Source of the DNA: Terriglobia bacterium
GTDB lineage: Bacteria; Acidobacteriota; Terriglobia; Acidiferrales; UBA7541
Assembly: GCA_020073705.1 (NCBI GenBank)
Contig: JAIQES010000002.1
Location: 1-64,000, forward strand
Direction: 5' to 3'
Length of the DNA stretch: 64,000 nt
Positions 11,052 to 19,701 of this stretch are shown one piece after another. The notes beneath the pieces were generated by a model, which searched no databases, was not told where the DNA came from, and saw only the letters and a list, made by a program, of their open reading frames with translations. The translations under genes and the position numbers were made by a program. Positions within the stretch are counted from its first letter, which is position 1. Every line of letters begins with the position of its first letter.

Positions 11052-11957
11052 GTGAGTCTCCGCCTCAAAGCCCAACTCGGGTTGGTGTTGTGCTCGCTGC
11101 TATGGGGAGTCACATTCGTTGTCGTGAAGGCCGCGCTGGCCGACGCCTCGGTCTTCGCTTTCCTGGCCGCGCGCTTCACTTTGGCCGCGCTGCCAATGGC
11201 CTGGATCTACCGCGCGGATATTCGGAAACTTTCGAGCGCCGAATTCTGGGCCGGTGCGCGGATTGGGATTTTCATGTTCAGCGGCTACGCATTTCAGACC
11301 GCCGGCATCGCCGAAACGACGCCTTCCAAGGCCGCATTCATCACCGGATTCAGCGTGGTGCTTGTTCCCGTACTGCTGGCGCTGCTCTGGCGGCGGCGTA
11401 TCAAGGCCTGGGTGTGGAGCGGCGCGTTAGCCTCCCTGGCGGGGCTCTATTACCTCACGGTTCCACGCGAGGGAATCACGGATCTCAACCGGGGAGATCT
11501 GCTCGTGTTGGTCTGCGCGGTACTCTATGCCCTGCAAATCATTTTCATCGCGCGCTATAGCGCAAAGCATTCGTTGGGCGGCCTCAGTTTCCTGCAAGTC
11601 GCCGCGACGGCGGCGCTTTCCTTAGCCGGGGTGCCTATACTCGCCGCGACACACTGGGAGCCGCTCCGCTTTCATCTCACATCGGAATTGATTTTTGGCG
11701 TTCTCGTCACGGCAGTGTTTACGACGGCGATTGCTTATCCGCTTCTGGTTTGGGCGCAGCGGCATACCAGCGCAACCAACACGGCGTTGATTCTCGCCAG
11801 CGAACCAATCTTTGCGGCGGTTACGTCGTTTATCGTCCTCCACGAACGTCTCGGCGTGCGAGCGTTGGCAGGTGCCGGGCTGATCCTTGCCGGGATACTT
11901 GTCGCTGAATTGAAAGGCCCTGTTCCCGCAGTTGAGGAAACTCACCTTGGTGCATGA
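11052..11957 (+). CDS. EamA/DMT-family transporter
   Basis: Inner-membrane drug/metabolite transporter of 301 aa with about ten hydrophobic segments in two EamA repeats (about residues 5-140 and 150-290). The first repeat starts LGLVLCSLLWGVTFVVVKAA and the second ends with the characteristic ILASEPIFAAVTSFIVLHERL. The start is taken as GTG at 11052; it has no ribosome binding site, because a tandem palindrome occupies that place. Substrate is unknown: family members export amino acids, purines or other metabolites. Confidence 0.85.
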   Translation: MSLRLKAQLGLVLCSLLWGVTFVVVKAALADASVFAFLAARFTLAALPMAWIYRADIRKLSSAEFWAGARIGIFMFSGYAFQTAGIAETTPSKAAFITGFSVVLVPVLLALLWRRRIKAWVWSGALASLAGLYYLTVPREGITDLNRGDLLVLVCAVLYALQIIFIARYSAKHSLGGLSFLQVAATAALSLAGVPILAATHWEPLRFHLTSELIFGVLVTAVFTTAIAYPLLVWAQRHTSATNTALILASEPIFAAVTSFIVLHERLGVRALAGAGLILAGILVAELKGPVPAVEETHLGA

Positions 11958-11982
11958 ATTCGCCGGGCGGAATTTTTTGGAA

Positions 11983-12240
11983 TTAGCCCGGATTTCTCAC
12001 CATGAGAGCCTCGGAATGAGGCGGCACAAGGTAGCCCAGCACGTAAGTGCTGGGAATTTACAGGGCCCACAGAAAAGCCCCGTAGGGGCGACACAGATTA
12101 CGCTTACGCAGAGCGTTAGGTTCCTTCTTTCGCCCCTAACGGGGCTTGGCATCCCTGAAGGGCCGCTTTCCCAGGGCTTGCGCCCTGGGCTACATTCTCT
12201 TCGCGCCTCTGGCGCTGCCGTGGTGAGAAATGCGGGTTAA
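11983..12240. mobile_element. MITE-like 258-bp nested palindrome, no coding capacity
   Basis: The ends match as inverted repeats at 18 of 20 positions (TTAGCCCGGATTTCTCACCA at 11983-12002 against the complement of 12221-12240). Inside are a second inverted pair beginning GTAGCCCAG (12031 and 12193, each also a hairpin) and a third, AAGCCCCG-TAGGGGCG (12076-12090 and 12131-12148). The whole is symmetric about position 12111. No target-site duplication is clear. It resembles a non-autonomous mobile element or a composite REP cluster. Confidence 0.6.
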
Positions 12241-12271
12241 ATCCACTGGGCATAGAAAATCAAACCAAGAA

Positions 12272-12299
12272 CCCGCCCTTGTAAACCGTCAAGGGCGGG
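12272..12299. terminator. Strong GC hairpin, possible terminator
   Basis: CCCGCCCTTG (12272-12281) pairs with CAAGGGCGGG (12290-12299), a perfect 10-bp stem with an 8-nt loop. No T-run follows on either strand, so intrinsic termination is uncertain. Confidence 0.4.
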
Positions 12300-12433
12300 G
12301 CACCCTCCAAAGCCATTCACCCCAACCGAGACAAGGACACCGTTTGCTAAGATTGCTACGGTCAGTAGTTCTAAATTATTCGCTATTTGTTCGCTGCGTT
12401 CCGTGATAGTCTCCCTGTTAGGAGAACGAACGC

Positions 12434-12712
12434 ATGATAACTGCTGTGGTGGTTGGGAACATTGAGAAAGTCGGGCCGGACTACATCTGGTGGCGGAATG
12501 GTGCCGACAAGCGCCAAGTGAATTTTGCCGACAATTGGGCGATGACGAAGGAAGATTGGGCCGCTAGCTTCCGCGGGCTAGTGGGCAAGCCAGCGGCGAT
12601 ACCCGTGGGCGGCCCGTTCTTTATCGCTGTCGATTTTCTGCCGGGCATTTTTGAGGGAACTGTCAGAGTCATTCAGTCTACTTTTCCCGTTGCCTCGGTC
12701 GAAAGACTCTAA
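12434..12712 (+). CDS. Small hypothetical protein
   Basis: A 92-aa soluble, Trp-rich protein with no family I recognise. The ATG has a good TTAGGAGA ribosome binding site 9 nt upstream, which supports translation. It is followed after 9 bases by the next hypothetical gene, so the two probably form an operon. The pair lies between a MITE-like element and a displaced leuD fragment, and its base composition looks less GC-rich than its neighbours, which suggests acquisition by transfer. Confidence 0.65.
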   Translation: MITAVVVGNIEKVGPDYIWWRNGADKRQVNFADNWAMTKEDWAASFRGLVGKPAAIPVGGPFFIAVDFLPGIFEGTVRVIQSTFPVASVERL

Positions 12713-12721
12713 TCCGCAGCC

Positions 12722-13573
12722 ATGAACTGGATCAGAACCGTCGCTGTCTACCTCTCCACGGCTGGTGTGCTCTATCTCGTCCTCGCCTACATAGGGGATT
12801 TGTCAATCCGGCAGAGCATTGTACTTGCCCTCCTGATGGCGTCGCTGGCCGTGGGCATCATCACAATCGCCGCAGCAAAGCCTGCCGGGAGATTCAACCC
12901 ATATTACGTCCGCATAGACCCGAACTGGTATGACCTTCTAATTGACTTCAAGTTGATCGACAAGCCAGAGGAGTGGCACGCCATTCAGAAGTCTTTTGAG
13001 GGACTACCCACCACTGAGTATCGTGTGCTCAGGAGCGGCATCTGTTTTACGGTCGTTCATCAATCAGAGGACTTCGAGCGCACGTTGGTCTACTCGGACA
13101 ATCATCGCGCATTCGTCAGCGAAGTCGATTTTGAGGAGGACGTGGAACCCATAAGGGTTGAACATACGAACCCGTTTGGAGAGCCAAACACCTGCGATGT
13201 ACGACTCTTCATGAAATCGGGTGGGCATGGTTACAATCTGGGAATCCGCGTGCCAGGACGTTGGTGGGATCAAGTAAAGGGAGCATGTCCAAAGCCAATT
13301 AAAGAAATAGACGACCACCCAACGGGTCGCGTGGAACTCATTCTGGCGACAATCTCCCATCGGGAATTCGATCTATATTGGGAGCCGGTAGAGTGGAGCA
13401 GCACGTTTTATGACAAAACCGCAAAGCAGATCAGGGGTCGAAGGGACGAACAGCGCCAGAAGCTTGGCTGGAAGACAATCGAGCATGACGCCGACTTAGG
13501 GGCAGAGCTAGGAATCGACTTTCCTGAGTCCATTGAGCACAAGTACTTCAATGTCGAGCACCGTGGAATTTGA
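12722..13573 (+). CDS. Hypothetical membrane-anchored protein
   Basis: A 283-aa protein with two N-terminal membrane segments (about residues 6-25 and 31-52) followed by a soluble domain of about 230 residues. That domain is rich in Trp and acidic residues (for example RIDPNWYDLLIDFKLID) and has no motif that I recognise. The ATG lacks a clear ribosome binding site, so translation may be coupled to the 92-aa gene ending 9 bases upstream. A displaced leuD 3' end begins 20 bases after the stop. Probably accessory DNA. Confidence 0.65.
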   Translation: MNWIRTVAVYLSTAGVLYLVLAYIGDLSIRQSIVLALLMASLAVGIITIAAAKPAGRFNPYYVRIDPNWYDLLIDFKLIDKPEEWHAIQKSFEGLPTTEYRVLRSGICFTVVHQSEDFERTLVYSDNHRAFVSEVDFEEDVEPIRVEHTNPFGEPNTCDVRLFMKSGGHGYNLGIRVPGRWWDQVKGACPKPIKEIDDHPTGRVELILATISHREFDLYWEPVEWSSTFYDKTAKQIRGRRDEQRQKLGWKTIEHDADLGAELGIDFPESIEHKYFNVEHRGI

Positions 13574-13593
13574 ACAACAAGTCGGGTGCGTCA

Positions 13594-13794
13594 GGCCTTG
13601 AGCGGTTTTGAATTGGCGGATAGCCGCGCCGTCACGCGAGATACGAATTTCGGCGTGTCCTACTGCCTGGGAGAATACTTCGAGTCTACGGTTTCGTGCA
13701 TTGTGGCGCTCGGATGCCTGGCCTGCTCGTAGGCAGTAATATCGGCCTCGTGCTTGAGAGTGAGTCCGATGTCGTCCAGGCCTTCCAGAAGGAC
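13594..13794 (-). pseudogene. Displaced leuD 3' end, copy A
   Basis: Bases 13660-13794 on the minus strand encode 44 residues and a stop that match the last 44 residues of LeuD (17576-17710) at 37 positions, with no frameshift ([20 protein letters not shown] is identical). Similarity continues past the stop (GAGCGGTTTTGAATT and GCCGCGCCGTnACGCGAG). The copy ends abruptly at a hairpin (13799-13830). No start codon or 5' part of leuD is present, so this is a fragment, not a second gene. Confidence 0.85.
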
Positions 13795-13798
13795 ATGC

Positions 13799-13830
13799 CC
13801 CACGCTTTCGCGAAGTTGCGAAAGCGTGGG
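13799..13830. repeat. 13-bp perfect hairpin at the edge of the leuD fragment
   Basis: CCCACGCTTTCGC (13799-13811) is followed after 6 bases by its exact complement (13818-13830). It marks the point where similarity to leuD stops, as a REP-type insertion or a recombination junction would. Confidence 0.65.
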
Positions 13831-13926
13831 CTACCAAACCTACACGCTCGAACGGAGCCGACGCTGTTATTAGGATCAACAATTCAAAATCGCTTAAAGA
13901 GTCGCGCACCCGGCAAAACGATTCCC

Positions 13927-14010
13927 TTGACAACCCGCAATTAGGAGCCTAGTCTACAATCCAACAGGAAGTCGCAACTACAGTGAGCGCCCCAAGGTGG
14001 GCGTTTTTTT
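13927..14010 (+). ncRNA. Promoter-to-terminator unit encoding a very short RNA (candidate)
   Basis: A perfect -35 (TTGACA, 13927-13932) is followed after 17 bases by TAGTCT (13950-13955), then by a hairpin (13988-13992 with 13999-14003) and seven T residues (14004-14010). If both signals work, the transcript is only about 45-50 nt and codes for nothing obvious. It lies between the two displaced leuD ends. Confidence 0.4.
13988..14010 (+). terminator. Rho-independent terminator
   Basis: CGCCC, loop CAAGGT, GGGCG, then TTTTTTT. The stem is short, but the T-run is complete. Confidence 0.65.
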
Positions 14011-14130
14011 ATTTGGGGCTGCAGTCTAAAGTAGACAAAAAGTAGATGGCGAAAGGCGCTCGGAATAGATCAAAAGCCGATGTCAAATTCTCCTCGATAA
14101 AATATTCAAGAAGGTAGACCCAGTATAGAA

Positions 14131-14297
14131 GTTGGTGACTCTTCTGAAAGAGAGAGGTTGTCTCCGCTACATCGCCCTAGTTGTGTGGCTGCTGGTGCCA
14201 ACATGATCCGTTGACGGGAGTGTGCCGCCTGAGTGCGGGAGCTCCCCGCTTAACTTTCTACTTCAATGAGGCCGCAGATTTTTCTGCGGTTTTTTTT
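14131..14297 (+). ncRNA. Structured small RNA candidate ending at a terminator
   Basis: A TATAGA (14124-14129) could serve as -10. About 165 bases follow without a credible gene but with several complementary segments: GTTGG at 14131 with CCAAC near 14197, and a GCGGG-AGCTC-CCCGC hairpin near 14236-14250. A strong intrinsic terminator closes it. The size is in the range of 6S-like RNAs, but I cannot assign a family. Confidence 0.4.
14272..14297 (+). terminator. Strong Rho-independent terminator
   Basis: CCGCAGA (14272-14278), loop TTTT, TCTGCGG (14283-14289), then eight T residues. A textbook intrinsic terminator. Confidence 0.8.
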
Positions 14298-14441
14298 ATG
14301 AAAAAAAAACAGACCCGTTCACCTATCGAGCAAATCAAGAAAGTGACCCGCTTGATTAAGGCGCTTCGGATCTTGGCTGCTAATGCCTACCCCCTCGCCA
14401 AGCTGCTTTGGCGGCTCTACAAGTTCCTAGGGCATCTCTAG
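14298..14441 (+). CDS. Possible 47-aa basic peptide
   Basis: An ATG directly after the terminator T-run opens a 47-codon frame. The peptide is strongly cationic (starts MKKKQTRS) with an amphipathic C-terminal half (LAANAYPLAKLLWRLYKFL). There is no ribosome binding site, because the upstream sequence is the terminator hairpin. It is probably not translated; the composition alone keeps it on the list. Confidence 0.2.
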   Translation: MKKKQTRSPIEQIKKVTRLIKALRILAANAYPLAKLLWRLYKFLGHL

Positions 14442-14536
14442 CACCAAGTTCGATCTCCGAGCGCGCGAGCACGAACCGTGGAGTCTCCCACGTCGTGGAG
14501 CGCGCACGCGAAGCCTGTCTGTACGGTTTACGCCAC

Positions 14537-14666
14537 CTTTTGGCGGGTGGCCGCGCCGTTACGCGAGGTGCGAACTTCGGGGTGCCCTACCGTCTGGGGA
14601 ATACTTCGAGTCCACGGCTTCGTACATCGTGGCGCTTGGGTGCTTGGCCTGCTCGTAGGCTGTAAT
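14537..14666 (-). pseudogene. Displaced leuD 3' end, copy B
   Basis: Bases 14587-14666 correspond to the last 27 codons of leuD ([23 protein letters not shown]). One base is missing relative to leuD (GTCTGGGGA for GTCTGGCGGA), so the frame runs past the leuD stop. Similarity continues downstream through GGCGGGTGGCCGCGCCGTTACGCGAGGT-like sequence to about 14537. The copy ends 5 bases before the stop codon of the neighbouring beta-barrel gene. Same orientation as leuD and copy A. Confidence 0.85.
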
Positions 14667-14671
14667 CCAGG

Positions 14672-15289
14672 CTAGTGTTGTTGCCTTCCGAGGCGAAGAA
14701 CGAATCCGCTGGCGAAACGCCAGTTTGAATGAGGATTGTTGGGGAAGTTCGTCCTCATCCAATCCACTTCCAGCAGGCGAATCGAGACTTGATGAGGAAT
14801 CTTCAGGTCTATTCCGGAGCCTAGGGCGTTGATCCAACTAACGCCGGTAACAGGCGGTTCAATCGGGAGCTGATTATCTCTGGCATAGGCAATGCCCGTC
14901 AGGTAATGACCGAAAACGCTCAATTTGCGATTAGGCCGGCGGTAGACGAATTCAGGCCCGACTAATCCTAGAAGCAGCTTGCTATTATGATGACGTGAAC
15001 CCGCGGGCAAGGTTTCCAGATCCATGATTCGGTCGGCGAAGCCGGCGTCGAACTCGCCGGCAACTCTAAAATAATTATTAAATGAACGGGCGAGCCCAGC
15101 TTGAGGACCGTGCCCTTGGGTCGTTATACTCCGTGTCGGCGGGCGACCCACCAGATAGTACTGAGCTCCACCGAACAACTCCCACCGCGGAAAGTCTTGA
15201 GCTTGGCAAAATGGGGAGAAAAGCAAAAAGAGACACGCCGGCAAAAACAATCTACAAATGCCGCGTGCCCGCCAATCGCGGGCGAGCAA
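14672..15289 (-). CDS. Outer membrane beta-barrel protein, paralog 2
   Basis: Predicted small outer-membrane barrel. It is paralogous to the gene just upstream; shared positions include PRWELFGG / PRWELMGG near the mature N-terminus, YFRVAGEFD / YFRVTGELN, LPAGSRH / LPAGGQY, FGHYLTGIAYARDNQ / FAHYLIGFSYGVDNQ and the end NWRFASGFVLRLG. The N-terminus has a signal peptide ending FCQAQ. I place the start at TTG 15289 because GGAGGA lies 5 nt upstream and this gives 205 aa, the exact length of its paralog; an in-frame TTG at 15364 is the alternative. A leuD fragment lies directly after the stop. Confidence 0.7.
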   Translation of the reverse strand: MLARDWRARGICRLFLPACLFLLFSPFCQAQDFPRWELFGGAQYYLVGRPPTRSITTQGHGPQAGLARSFNNYFRVAGEFDAGFADRIMDLETLPAGSRHHNSKLLLGLVGPEFVYRRPNRKLSVFGHYLTGIAYARDNQLPIEPPVTGVSWINALGSGIDLKIPHQVSIRLLEVDWMRTNFPNNPHSNWRFASGFVLRLGRQQH

Positions 15290-15321
15290 ACGAGATCCTC
15301 CGGCCTTTACATCAGTGTCAT

Positions 15322-15939
15322 CTAGTGGCCGAATCGATAAACAACTCCTGAAGTAAAGCGCCAATTATCCTCCGCGTTAAAATCTTGTTTAGGGAAATGC
15401 GATATAATCCAATCTGCTTCCAACAAACGGATCGCAAGCCGATGCCGCGTTTTCAGATCCAGACCGACACCTGTACCATACACCCATGAGGTAAACGTGT
15501 TATTTGCGACCGCGGGAACCTGGTTATCCACTCCGTACGAAAATCCGATCAGGTAATGAGCAAAGACATCGAAATGCTTTAGCGTTCGCACGGTGGCTTC
15601 GGGTCCAAACAGGGCCATGATTTCATATCCAGTTTTGTATTGGCCTCCGGCGGGCAGGTGCTCGACGGCAACCACTTCCTTGCCAAACAATCCGTTTAGC
15701 TCCCCAGTCACCCGGAAATAGCTCTTGATGGATCGAGACAATCCGATTTGGAAACCTTTGGCGGGTAACTGCCCCGGATTTGCAGCCATTGAACCGTCCG
15801 GTAAAACCGATGCATATTCGCCGCCCGCCAGATACGTCGTGTATCCACCCATTAGCTCCCAGCGCGGCGTGGCCGTTTGCGCAAAACAAACTGACGAAAA
15901 AATAACAATCGAGCAGGCCGTCAGAAAAAGCTTTCTCAT
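15322..15939 (-). CDS. Outer membrane beta-barrel protein, paralog 1
   Basis: A 205-aa protein with a clear signal peptide (residues 1-20, ending VCFAQ) and alternating short beta strands that end in an aromatic (VVYRFGH), as usual for outer-membrane barrels. The ATG has AAGGAA upstream. Paralog 2 follows 32 bases downstream, so the two form an operon from a local duplication. Cargo or function is unknown; small OmpA/OmpW-like barrels are the nearest comparison by layout only. Confidence 0.75.
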   Translation of the reverse strand: MRKLFLTACSIVIFSSVCFAQTATPRWELMGGYTTYLAGGEYASVLPDGSMAANPGQLPAKGFQIGLSRSIKSYFRVTGELNGLFGKEVVAVEHLPAGGQYKTGYEIMALFGPEATVRTLKHFDVFAHYLIGFSYGVDNQVPAVANNTFTSWVYGTGVGLDLKTRHRLAIRLLEADWIISHFPKQDFNAEDNWRFTSGVVYRFGH

Positions 15940-16404
15940 TCAGTTCCTTATTCTAGGATGACGATCCAGAAGTTTTGCGGGAATACGCTTTGTCGCGGTG
16001 AATTCCTCGCGCCATCCACGGAGTTACCAAATCAGTGACGAACCCGTAGTTCGAGTCATTAAACAGCCCGTGAGACCAGTCCAATTTCTCCCAAATAGGC
16101 CGCGCATGTATTCGACGGGATGAAACATGTACTGTATCCGCTGTTCGGTGTCAAGTTCGAAAGCGAGTCTGGCGATGGGTTGCCGCTCAGCAGACCACCG
16201 CGTAATCATTTCAGGAAAACTAATCAGGAAAGAACTACGAAGTCTCACTCCGGAACTTCCAGGCTTAACTTGTACTGCAAGTTAACATACCTACTACGCG
16301 GAAACGGTAGTCGGCGACGCCTCCACGACGGGCCTGGGAAAAGCGATAGCGTTGCGTCCGAAGATTCATCGAAAACGATGCAGTTAAAACCCGGAGTCCG
16401 GATT
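15940..16404. other. Intergenic region, possible decayed gene on the minus strand
   Basis: 465 bases without an intact gene. The minus strand from about 16248 reads a protein-like segment (FHPVEYMRGLFGRN) and, after a shift of frame near 16080, a second one (WSHGLFNDSNYGFVTDLVTP) that ends near 15950. This looks like a frameshifted remnant, but I do not recognise the parent family. Confidence 0.3.
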
Positions 16405-17295
16405 CTATTTGGATATTGCCGCAGGCGCTTCTTGGATTGCCGTTTGATAACTCAGCGTCTCCACCCATTTGCCGTCTCGCGCAATCCAAACTCGAGTGAT
16501 GTGAAGCGGTTTGCCCCGGTCGGGCTGGTGGAGCGATAACATAACGACTGCATCTCCGAAGTCAAACATGCGCGCAGATACCAGCGGCGTGGGCGAAACT
16601 CCAGCCATCTTTTCGCGCTCGAGCCCCGCCATTCGCTCCGCTTTGTCGAGCAGCACGTCGCTGTTGGAACTGGCCGCCGCGAATTCATCGGCAACATGCG
16701 TGCCAAAATCGGACGCGTTATGGGCCACGGCCGCGCTTTCAAGCCCCAGGTACGAAGCGATGACCGCCTTCTCGGTTTCATTTTTCGGATGGTACGGAAC
16801 ACTCTTGCACGGATTCTCGCAGGCACGGCCCGCGCCGGGCGCAAACGTAGGAGGCGCATCGAGCGATTTTACCTCTTGATAAACAAGCGCTCGCCAGCCC
16901 GCGGGACGCTTCACCCAGACGCGCAAGATGTGCACTTTCCCGGCGTCCTTCTGCACGACCGCGACCTGCCCATAGGTGTACTCCCTTACCCGAGCACTTT
17001 CGCCGCCAGTGGCAAATTCAGGCCCTTTCCCGGCGTCGAAGCTACGAAGAACCTGCGCTCTCGCGCTGGTCTTTCCAGCCGCGTCGGTCCATGTAAATTC
17101 CGCGTCGAGGAATTTGCCCACTGCCGCCTTGGCAATCTTCTTGTCCGCAATGCCCACGGCCTGCTCAAAAGCACGATCGGCCTCGCGCACCGCCTCCATG
17201 TCGTCGGGAGCGGCAACCGGCCCGGCGGTCAGCGCGGCAACGGCCCCGGCACATGCAATTCCGATGGCGAACACACTTGCCAAAAGGCGCTTCAT
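16405..17295 (-). CDS. Exported protein with two SnoaL/DUF4440-like domains
   Basis: A 296-aa protein with a signal peptide (about residues 1-28). Two NTF2-like halves follow, residues 33-150 and 175-290. Each starts with a helix carrying E-x2-V or E-x3-A patterns (AVREADRAFEQAV and AVIASYLGLESAAV) and ends with a strand pair containing HI-x-RVW (HILRVWVKR and HITRVWIAR). The repeat of this last motif supports an internal duplication. The ATG has GGAGGATGCA upstream. NTF2-like folds bind small ligands or act as enzymes; no catalytic set can be read here. Confidence 0.75.
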   Translation of the reverse strand: MKRLLASVFAIGIACAGAVAALTAGPVAAPDDMEAVREADRAFEQAVGIADKKIAKAAVGKFLDAEFTWTDAAGKTSARAQVLRSFDAGKGPEFATGGESARVREYTYGQVAVVQKDAGKVHILRVWVKRPAGWRALVYQEVKSLDAPPTFAPGAGRACENPCKSVPYHPKNETEKAVIASYLGLESAAVAHNASDFGTHVADEFAAASSNSDVLLDKAERMAGLEREKMAGVSPTPLVSARMFDFGDAVVMLSLHQPDRGKPLHITRVWIARDGKWVETLSYQTAIQEAPAAISK

Positions 17296-17575
17296 TGCAT
17301 CCTCCTGCGATTCGGATCTAATAGGAACAAAATTCTAGACCCAGAGGATGCCTTCTTACAACCCTTGGATCGCTATTTTCGCAAATGCCGCCCTGTTGAT
17401 TGCCAGGGCCGATTATTGTGAGCCTGTATTGATGATTGAGCCGGTCCGCGATCTCATTCAGATAGGGACAGGTGGCCCGGGCTTTGAGCGGTTTTGAATT
17501 TGTGGGTGGCCCGTCCTTCGTTGTGGGAAGGGCGGGTGGCCGCGCCGTTACGCGAGGTACAAACTTCGGCGTGCC
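17296..17575. other. Region downstream of leuD, part of the repeated unit
   Basis: Bases 17481-17575 follow the leuD stop on its transcript side and recur, partly, next to both displaced leuD ends. A hairpin (GGCCCGTCCTTC ... GGAAGGGCGGGTGGCC, 17507-17541) lies within it and may end the leuCD transcript. The rest holds nothing I recognise. Confidence 0.55.
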
Positions 17576-17710
17576 CTACCGTCTGGCGGAATACTTTGAG
17601 TCCACGGCCTCATATATCGTGGCGTGCGGGTGCTTGGCCTGTTCGTAGGCGGTAATATCGGCCTCATGTTTGAGAGTAAGTCCGATGTCGTCCAGGCCTT
17701 CCAGAAGGAC
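17481..17710. repeat. Parent copy of the leuD 3'-end direct repeat
   Basis: The last 45 codons of leuD plus about 95 downstream bases. Related copies lie at 13594-13794 and 14537-14666 in the same orientation. Three direct copies around small cargo segments is the pattern expected of an attachment site at a gene's 3' end, or of old tandem duplications. Confidence 0.7.
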
Positions 17711-18214
17711 ACGCTTGCGGAACTCGCCGATTTCAAACTTATAGCTCAACCCGTGCGCATCGCTGATGGTTTGACTGGGCAAATCCACCGTCAGCTTGTA
17801 GCCTTCCTCGCTTTCTGCGAGTTTGAATAGTTCATCCACCTGATTTTCGGCCAGCGTGACGGGAAGAATACCGTTCTTGAAGCAATTGTTATAGAAAATG
17901 TCGGCATAGCTTGGAGCAATTATGACGCGGAAGCCGTAGTCGGCGAGGGCCCAGGGGGCATGCTCGCGGCTTGAGCCGCACCCGCAATTAGCGCGAGCCA
18001 ACATGATCGATGCGCCTTTATACCGCGGCCAGTTCAGGATGAAGTCTGGGTTCGGTTTCTCACCCGGGAGATAGCGCCAGTCGTAAAACAGCACCCGGCC
18101 GAAGCCCTGTTTTGTCTGGAGCTTCAGGAACTGCTTCGGCACCATCTGATCCGTGTCCACATTTACACGGTCGAGCGGAAAGACCAGTCCGGTATGTCGT
18201 GAAAAAGGCTGCAT
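17576..18214 (-). CDS. leuD: 3-isopropylmalate dehydratase, small subunit
   Basis: With LeuC, isomerises 2- to 3-isopropylmalate in leucine biosynthesis. The 212-aa length fits. Recognisable are the substrate-loop region [19 protein letters not shown] and [15 protein letters not shown], which shapes the active site with LeuC's cluster. The ATG at 18214 has GGAGAAAACG upstream and gives the usual N-terminus; an upstream in-frame extension overlaps leuC and is rejected. It follows leuC by 65 bases on the same strand. Its 3' end is the source of two displaced fragments 3 and 4 kb away. Confidence 0.93.
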
Positions 18215-18279
18215 CGTTTTCTCCGGCGGGTTCCACGCTTCAATTGAAGCGTTCAGCGTAAAAGTAGGGCCCGCACCCT

Positions 18280-19701
18280 CTACTCCACTGCGTCCACGTT
18301 CCACTCGCGCACGTCCACGAAGTGGCCGGCGATGGCCGCGGCTGCGGCCATGATTGGGCTCACCAGATGTGTTCGGCTGTCCTTCCCCTGGCGGCCTTCG
18401 AAATTCCGATTCGAAGTGCTGGCGGATCGCTCACCGGGTGGGAGTACGTCGGGATTCATGGCGATGCACATGCTGCAACCTGCATCGCGCCATTCGAATC
18501 CGGCGTCACGGAAAATTTTGTCGAGCCCTTCGCTTTCCGCCTTCGCCTTGATAGTCATCGAGCCAGGTACCACCAGCGCTTCCTTGAGATCCTTGGAGAT
18601 GTGCTTGCCGGCGACGACGCGCGCCGCGGCCCGAAGGTCGTTCAAGCGCGAATTCGTGCACGATCCGATGAAAACCCGATCGACGGGGATATCAACCAGA
18701 GGGGTGCCAGGCTTAAGCCCCATGTATTCGAGGGCGCGTGCAACAGCCTTTTGATCATCGGGATCGTGGAAGGAAGCTGGATCGGGCACCCGACCGGTAA
18801 CGCCGGTGACCATGCCGGGGTTTGTTCCCCAGGTCACCTGCGGGGCAAGCTTCGACGCGTCGAGCGTGACTGTGCCGTCGAATGCTGCGCCGGGATCGGT
18901 GGCGAGAGCCCTCCAGCCCTCGACGGCTTCCTGAAATGCCTTCCCACGCGGAACAAAGGGCCGCCCTTCCATGTAGGCGAAGGTCGTGTCGTCCGGAGCA
19001 ATCATTCCGGCGCGAGCCCCGCCTTCAATGGACATGTTGCAGACCGTCATTCGGCCGTCCATCGAAAGCGCGCGAATCGCTTCGCCTGAGTACTCGACCA
19101 CGCGGCTAGTGCCGCCCGCAATGCCGATCTTTCCGATGATCGCGAGAATAATATCTTTGGCCGAAACGCCCTTCGAGCGCTTTCCGTTGACGACGATATT
19201 CATCGTCTTCGATTCGTATTGCGAAAGGCACTGCGTTGCGAGCACATGCTCGACCTCGCTTGTGCCGATCCCGAACGCCAGGGTTCCGAACGCGCCGTGC
19301 GTCGAGGTGTGACTGTCGCCGCAGACGATGGTCTGGCCAGGCTGCGTGATGCCAAGCTCCGGACCGATGATGTGCACGATGCCCTGGTTTCGGCTGAACA
19401 TGTCGAACAGTGTGATGCTGAACTCACGGCAGTTGCGCGCGAGCGCCTCGAGTTGTCCGGCCGCGGCCTCGTCAAGGATCGGCAGATTGCGATTCTTGGT
19501 CGGGACGGAGTGGTCCATGACGGCGAAAGCCAAGTCAGGCCGCCGTACCGTGCGGCCTGCCGCTTTCAACCCGGCAAAAGCCTGCGGGGACGTGCCTTCG
19601 TGGACCAGGTGGCGGTCAATATAGATTAAAGAAGGTTCTCCGGGGGCCTCGCGCACAACATGCGCGTCCCATATTTTGCGATACATTGTGCGAGGAATCA
19701 T
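18280..19701 (-). CDS. leuC: 3-isopropylmalate dehydratase, large subunit
   Basis: Aconitase-family subunit of 473 aa that carries the 4Fe-4S cluster of isopropylmalate isomerase. The three cluster cysteines are Cys348 (GSCTNS), Cys409 and Cys412 (AGCSMC). The His/Asp-rich motifs VMDHSVPT and [13 protein letters not shown] are present. The ATG at 19701 has TAGGA upstream; a second ATG five codons later is possible. leuD follows. The gene is divergent from the degP-like gene, with the two promoters in about 170 bases. Confidence 0.94.

Follow-up and report, generated by a model that had tools for sequence, protein, structure and literature searches.

Between two displaced 3′ ends of leuD, the plus strand carries a promoter-like site (P1) followed by two intrinsic terminators (T1 and T2), and the reading we favor, to which we give about an even chance, is that the three form an orphan transcription unit, specific to this species and probably acquired. 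From P1 an RNA of ~46 nt would be made, some read-through of a leaky T1 would continue as far as T2, and T2 would insulate what lies beyond. The window, meaning the whole stretch of DNA analyzed, comprises bases 1-64000 of contig C7 of a 3.79-Mb assembly.

T1 (13985-14007, plus strand) has an 8-pair stem, a 6-nt loop and a T run, and T2 (14268-14297, plus strand) combines a stronger stem of 10-11 pairs and a TTTT loop with a T run; both were read from the sequence and examined by terminator scans and shuffles. Under a strict rule (a stem of at least seven pairs, at least four of them G-C, and at least six T in eight), T1 and T2 are the only plus-strand sites in the 64-kb window, which has one such site on the minus strand, and they lie within 313 bp. 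The strong terminator reported at 14268-14297 by a first-pass annotation of this DNA is thus one of just two. Twenty shuffled windows gave a mean of 0.55 sites on the plus strand and 0.50 on the minus strand, and when 13900-14400 was shuffled 500 times, at least one strict terminator appeared in 0.8% of the shuffles and two in none (0/500). The excess depends on the strict rule, because a looser scan was not selective (seven sites in 4 kb versus 4.7 expected). Applied to seven leuD regions from relatives, the strict rule left five empty, and the remaining two had a single site each, one on the plus strand and the other on the minus strand. The sequence signals of T1, T2 and P1 are mostly real, beyond what chance provides.

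P1 (13927-13955, plus strand) is a sigma-70-like site, TTGACA-17-TAGTCT, with a matrix score of 11.1 and a predicted transcription start at ~13961-13964. It has a rank fraction of 0.00005 among the 127,938 positions on both strands of the window, a figure limited by the matrix, which is E. coli-like. Its exact 12-base pattern occurs once in the genome, with ~0.5 occurrences expected by chance. A consensus promoter scan did not list P1 because TAGTCT has three of the six consensus -10 bases, and this weak -10 is a caveat to the pairing of P1 with T1, which otherwise presents a promoter and a terminator at small-RNA distance (30 bp from the end of P1 to T1) and no ORF. The predicted RNA (13961-14007, plus strand; fold z = -1.3) would be ~46 nt long (43-50), in agreement with the upstream promoter-terminator unit of 45-50 nt postulated in the first-pass annotation. 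With the intergenic small RNAs of bacteria that end in intrinsic terminators it shares an intergenic promoter-like site, a short distance and a 3′ hairpin followed by a T run, although no conservation was found for it in the genomes searched.

In the reading we favor, P1 would start a plus-strand transcript and most polymerases would halt at T1, giving a ~46-nt RNA with a mostly unpaired 5′ half followed by the T1 hairpin. If this candidate acts at all, it would most likely do so by base pairing through its 5′ half. Polymerases that read through T1 would be halted by T2, and their RNA would not exceed ~335 nt. T2 would thereby shield the stray leuD end that follows, and the minus-strand genes farther on, from this transcription. 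Judging from the sequence, one or two small RNAs are probably made from the stretch.

The 260 bases between the terminators (14008-14267, plus strand; the body) contain no recognizable gene and have an unexceptional fold by sequence, fold, ORF and domain searches, and they would be transcribed only with read-through of T1 or from an unrecognized promoter. The idea that the short RNA pairs with the body was considered separately and rejected, as pairing was equally good or better in 96% of 300 shuffles. A promoter, an early terminator, a gene-free interval of ~260 nt and a final terminator are also what a lost operon might leave behind. P1 and an attenuator-like T1 would then have stood before a gene since deleted, T2 would be the terminator of the operon, and the RNA would now be functionless. 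This is the main rival, and though on balance unlikely it carries considerable weight: deletions are plausible because truncated leuD copies and inverted repeats lie near by. However, ten open stretches of 25-86 aa, chosen from the six frames of 13830-14540, had no hit in PHROGs and three in Pfam, all of them sub-threshold (DosC_2nd, HKR_ArcB_TM and DUF7229; E 0.058-0.22), with scores of 12-14 bits that fall far below the cut-offs of 27-31. The stems and T runs of T1 and T2 are also intact, where decay would be expected to wear them down.

The first-pass annotation had proposed something larger, namely a structured RNA of ~165 nt with several complementary segments that starts from its own promoter at a TATAGA box and ends at T2. 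A functional small RNA of this kind is in our view distinctly unlikely. Its minimum free energy (MFE) does lie 3.3-3.7 standard deviations below that of shuffled sequences: 14128-14297 (170 nt) has z = -3.68 with 200 shuffles and -3.33 with 100, and 14035-14297 has z = -2.32 or -2.08 in two shuffle runs. However, T2 alone (14264-14297) reaches z = -6.18, and without it the values are -1.65 for 14128-14267, -1.47 for 14133-14263 and -0.86 for 14035-14267. As a reference, 376 window pieces of 170 nt, taken from both strands at every second 170 bases with 25 shuffles each, gave a mean z of -0.19 (sd 1.12). Four pieces were as low as -3.68, seven as low as -3.33, 32 as low as -1.65 and 37 as low as -1.47, so that the fold of 14128-14297 ranks among the strongest 1-2% of window pieces with T2 and among the strongest 9-10% without it. 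The terminator therefore supplies most of the fold signal. The predicted MFE fold of 14128-14297 consists of a short closing stem, four branches and the terminator. The region illustrates that genuine promoter and terminator signals may enclose a stretch in which a structured RNA is unsupported, and by itself it has little significance.

The promoter assigned to the larger RNA did not hold up either. The TATAGA box (14124-14129, plus strand) has AATATT at the -35 distance, that is, no -35 partner, and it belongs to none of the eight plus-strand sites that score best by matrix in 13860-14300. It is outscored by the TATACT (14122-14127) of an overlapping possible promoter on the minus strand, CTTTCA-17-TATACT (14122-14150; score 8.79). 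Control of a minus-strand transcript that starts from this TATACT and runs antisense to the P1 RNA is an improbable role for the stretch. The rank fraction of 0.00036, obtained with the same E. coli-like matrix and limited by it, speaks for the site, but ~46 of the 127,938 window positions do equally well, the strict rule finds no minus-strand terminator there and no recognized gene comes before the stray leuD end.

Covariance models give the stretch no known identity. No family of Rfam 15 reaches its gathering score at 13850-14500, where nine sub-threshold matches occur at E up to 10. The 6S RNA (RF00013), which the first-pass annotation had named for this check, has no match in the window nor, at E up to 10, in 13850-14500; the genome's own 6S sits elsewhere (G000:C13:48279-48473; 55.4 bits versus a cut-off of 46.4), and 6S matches at E 0.001 are present in 32 of 41 genomes, this one included. 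6S RNA forms a long, rod-like structure whose large central bubble mimics an open promoter. At 187 positions, its model is close in length to the proposed 165-nt RNA, but the predicted fold of 14128-14297 is multi-branched rather than a long bulged rod. The sub-threshold match of lowest E (0.097) is SorY (RF02651), which likewise has a pair of hairpins with a U run after the second, but scores 20.5 bits here versus a gathering score of 111. No tRNA or tmRNA was found in the window. The only Rfam family that passes in the window is the Acido-Lenti-1 RNA (RF01687), twice, at 12007-12054 on the minus strand and 12170-12216 on the plus strand, just behind the EamA transporter gene; near by as it is, it has no match in 13850-14500. 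A table in PMC2864571 gives this motif for Acidobacteria and Lentisphaerae, and the two matches hint at an acidobacterial source for the DNA. The piece that holds the first match (11901-12070) has the strongest fold of the 376, with z = -5.5 on the minus strand.

Searches for relatives returned little. In 60 other close genomes, blastn of 13880-14460 found short matches and no homologous stretch. The only match near E 0.001 among them covers 37 bases (14043-14079) that are 84% identical in genome G009 (E 9.8e-4) and does not extend, although it may still represent a shared fragment. No match at E 0.001 to 13920-14450 was found by blastn in 395 other genomes of the phylum, a set that was drawn from a larger group and overlaps the 60; weak homologues may be missed, since only the two best first-look candidates were scored per listed genome. 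An RNA model made from the single sequence (R1) gave nothing below E 0.25 in 88 other genomes of the family, where three matches lay at 0.255-0.86, and two matches that passed E 0.01 in 296 other genomes of the phylum, under strict filters that can lose weak matches. For L077, L078 and L065, which are three of the five matches and include both from the phylum, the alignments comprise the terminator hairpin and the short closing stem with most of the body omitted, which argues against the structured ~165-nt RNA.

Collections of phage and plasmid DNA had no match to 13830-14540 at E 1. Exact seeds from the body occur in six stretches of genome_contigs, from unrelated genera and with ~7 expected by chance, and in three stretches of viral_contigs, where the exact P1-T1 seed is absent. 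These nine stretches were rejected as homologues, as blastn at the seed covers 17-24 bases and R1 matched five of the nine over 15-24 bases and the other four nowhere. The body thus has no homologue in the genomes searched, and therefore the compensatory changes that the first-pass annotation had proposed to look for in homologous regions could not be counted, nor any covariation. That annotation had named the joint lack of conservation and of a transcript as grounds for dropping its RNA; no conservation, the first half of this, is what we see as far as the 60 close and 395 phylum genomes reach. We found no literature on Acidobacteriota that combines small RNAs with transcription start sites, and no report on Acidobacteria stood among the entries inspected on small RNA, intrinsic terminators or orphans; no wider claim of absence from print is made.

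The first-pass annotation had also described the region as free of genes, and the longest ATG ORF in 13830-14540 is indeed one of 47 aa, a length reached by 68% of 500 shuffles. This cationic ORF (14298-14441, plus strand) starts at the end of the T run of T2, its AUG lying directly 3′ of the U8, and such contact would suit a leader in which T2 is an attenuator and the peptide is made only on read-through. The ORF's own frame has the best codon score of the six (0.144), and 3.4% of 2000 residue shuffles attain a hydrophobic moment as high as the maximum of the peptide. We nevertheless think leader control very improbable, as a length expected by chance comes with no Shine-Dalgarno sequence by eye, no protein family match at cut-off and no confirmed relatives. 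With E allowed up to 1, matches turned up in 11 of the 60 other genomes, 0.156 being the lowest E, and in pattern scans that reach close relatives only, confirmed matches number 0 of 348 for genome_contigs and 0 of 68 for viral_contigs.

A more elaborate version, which we regard as the least probable of all, would make the stretch a lineage-specific regulatory cassette. A new small cationic peptide (14298-14441) would be controlled by the P1-T1 RNA and by read-through to T2, and an antisense promoter would converge from 14122-14150. It would be a type I-like toxin-antitoxin system or an attenuated peptide gene with no known relatives. In type I systems an antisense RNA controls a small toxin ORF; the sequence here contains a cationic 47-aa ORF of chance length and without confirmed relatives, and a minus-strand promoter-like site upstream.

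The stray leuD 3′ ends that flank the P1-T1-T2 stretch on both sides, as the first-pass annotation had correctly recorded, are minus-strand copies at 13615-13798, 84% identical to 17531-17714 at the end of the intact gene, and at 14542-14666, 90% identical to 17531-17656. Repeat searches revealed inverted copies of a dispersed genomic repeat around the first of them (13583-13615 and 13880-13912), and these arms read TTCAAAATCGCT...GCGCACCCGGC. The repeat occurs at four further places, two on contig C15 and one each on C45 and C6; three were found by pattern (at most three mismatches; reversed control 0) and the C6 copy by blastn. In the genome itself, the blastn query 13880-14460 also matches the repeat at 13883-13915, and a partial copy lies beside the intact leuD end (17480-17500). 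The stray ends may plausibly have arisen by repeat-linked duplication, and their position next to a dispersed repeat makes them a concrete case of possible repeat-linked shuffling. A perfect 13-bp inverted repeat with a 6-nt loop (13799-13830) starts precisely where the first stray copy ends.

In the window, leuD and EamA lie 5.6 kb apart (11957-17576). EamA is convergent with leuD in six of the seven leuD regions fetched from relatives, and no EamA match was found in the leuD stretch of the seventh (G007); a further genome, G002, has no leuD match. The ends of the leuD and EamA matches are adjacent, 35-124 bp apart, in the same-genus genomes G001, G004 and G005. In G003, G006 and G008 the two genes are separated by 2.8-3.4 kb with other ORFs between; 3.4 kb is the distance in a fourth same-genus relative. 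Since spacing and content differ among relatives, the junction is a place of gene turnover, and it is there that the favored unit would sit. That different species of the family hold different genes at this junction is mildly useful in itself.

The G+C content is 0.51 for 13830-14540 versus 0.58 for the window, and on this and the absence in relatives the stretch was probably acquired. The suggestion in the first-pass annotation that it could be cargo stands insofar as it sits in an insert missing from three same-genus relatives; cargo of a mobile element is unsupported, because none of the six insert proteins matched integrase or transposase families. Between 11957 and 17576 are a DUF4440 protein, two related proteins (41% identical, outer-membrane-like by eye, without a Pfam match) and two orphan ORFs. 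A 283-aa ORF at 12722-13573 has no Pfam, PHROG or NCBIfam match, and its only homologue in the 60 other genomes is in G013 (36% identity, E 4.8e-36). An N-terminal extension of the leuD frame (18217-18304) has nine short matches scattered over G003, G004 and G005, and may therefore not be protein but an intergenic repeat that the frame reads through.
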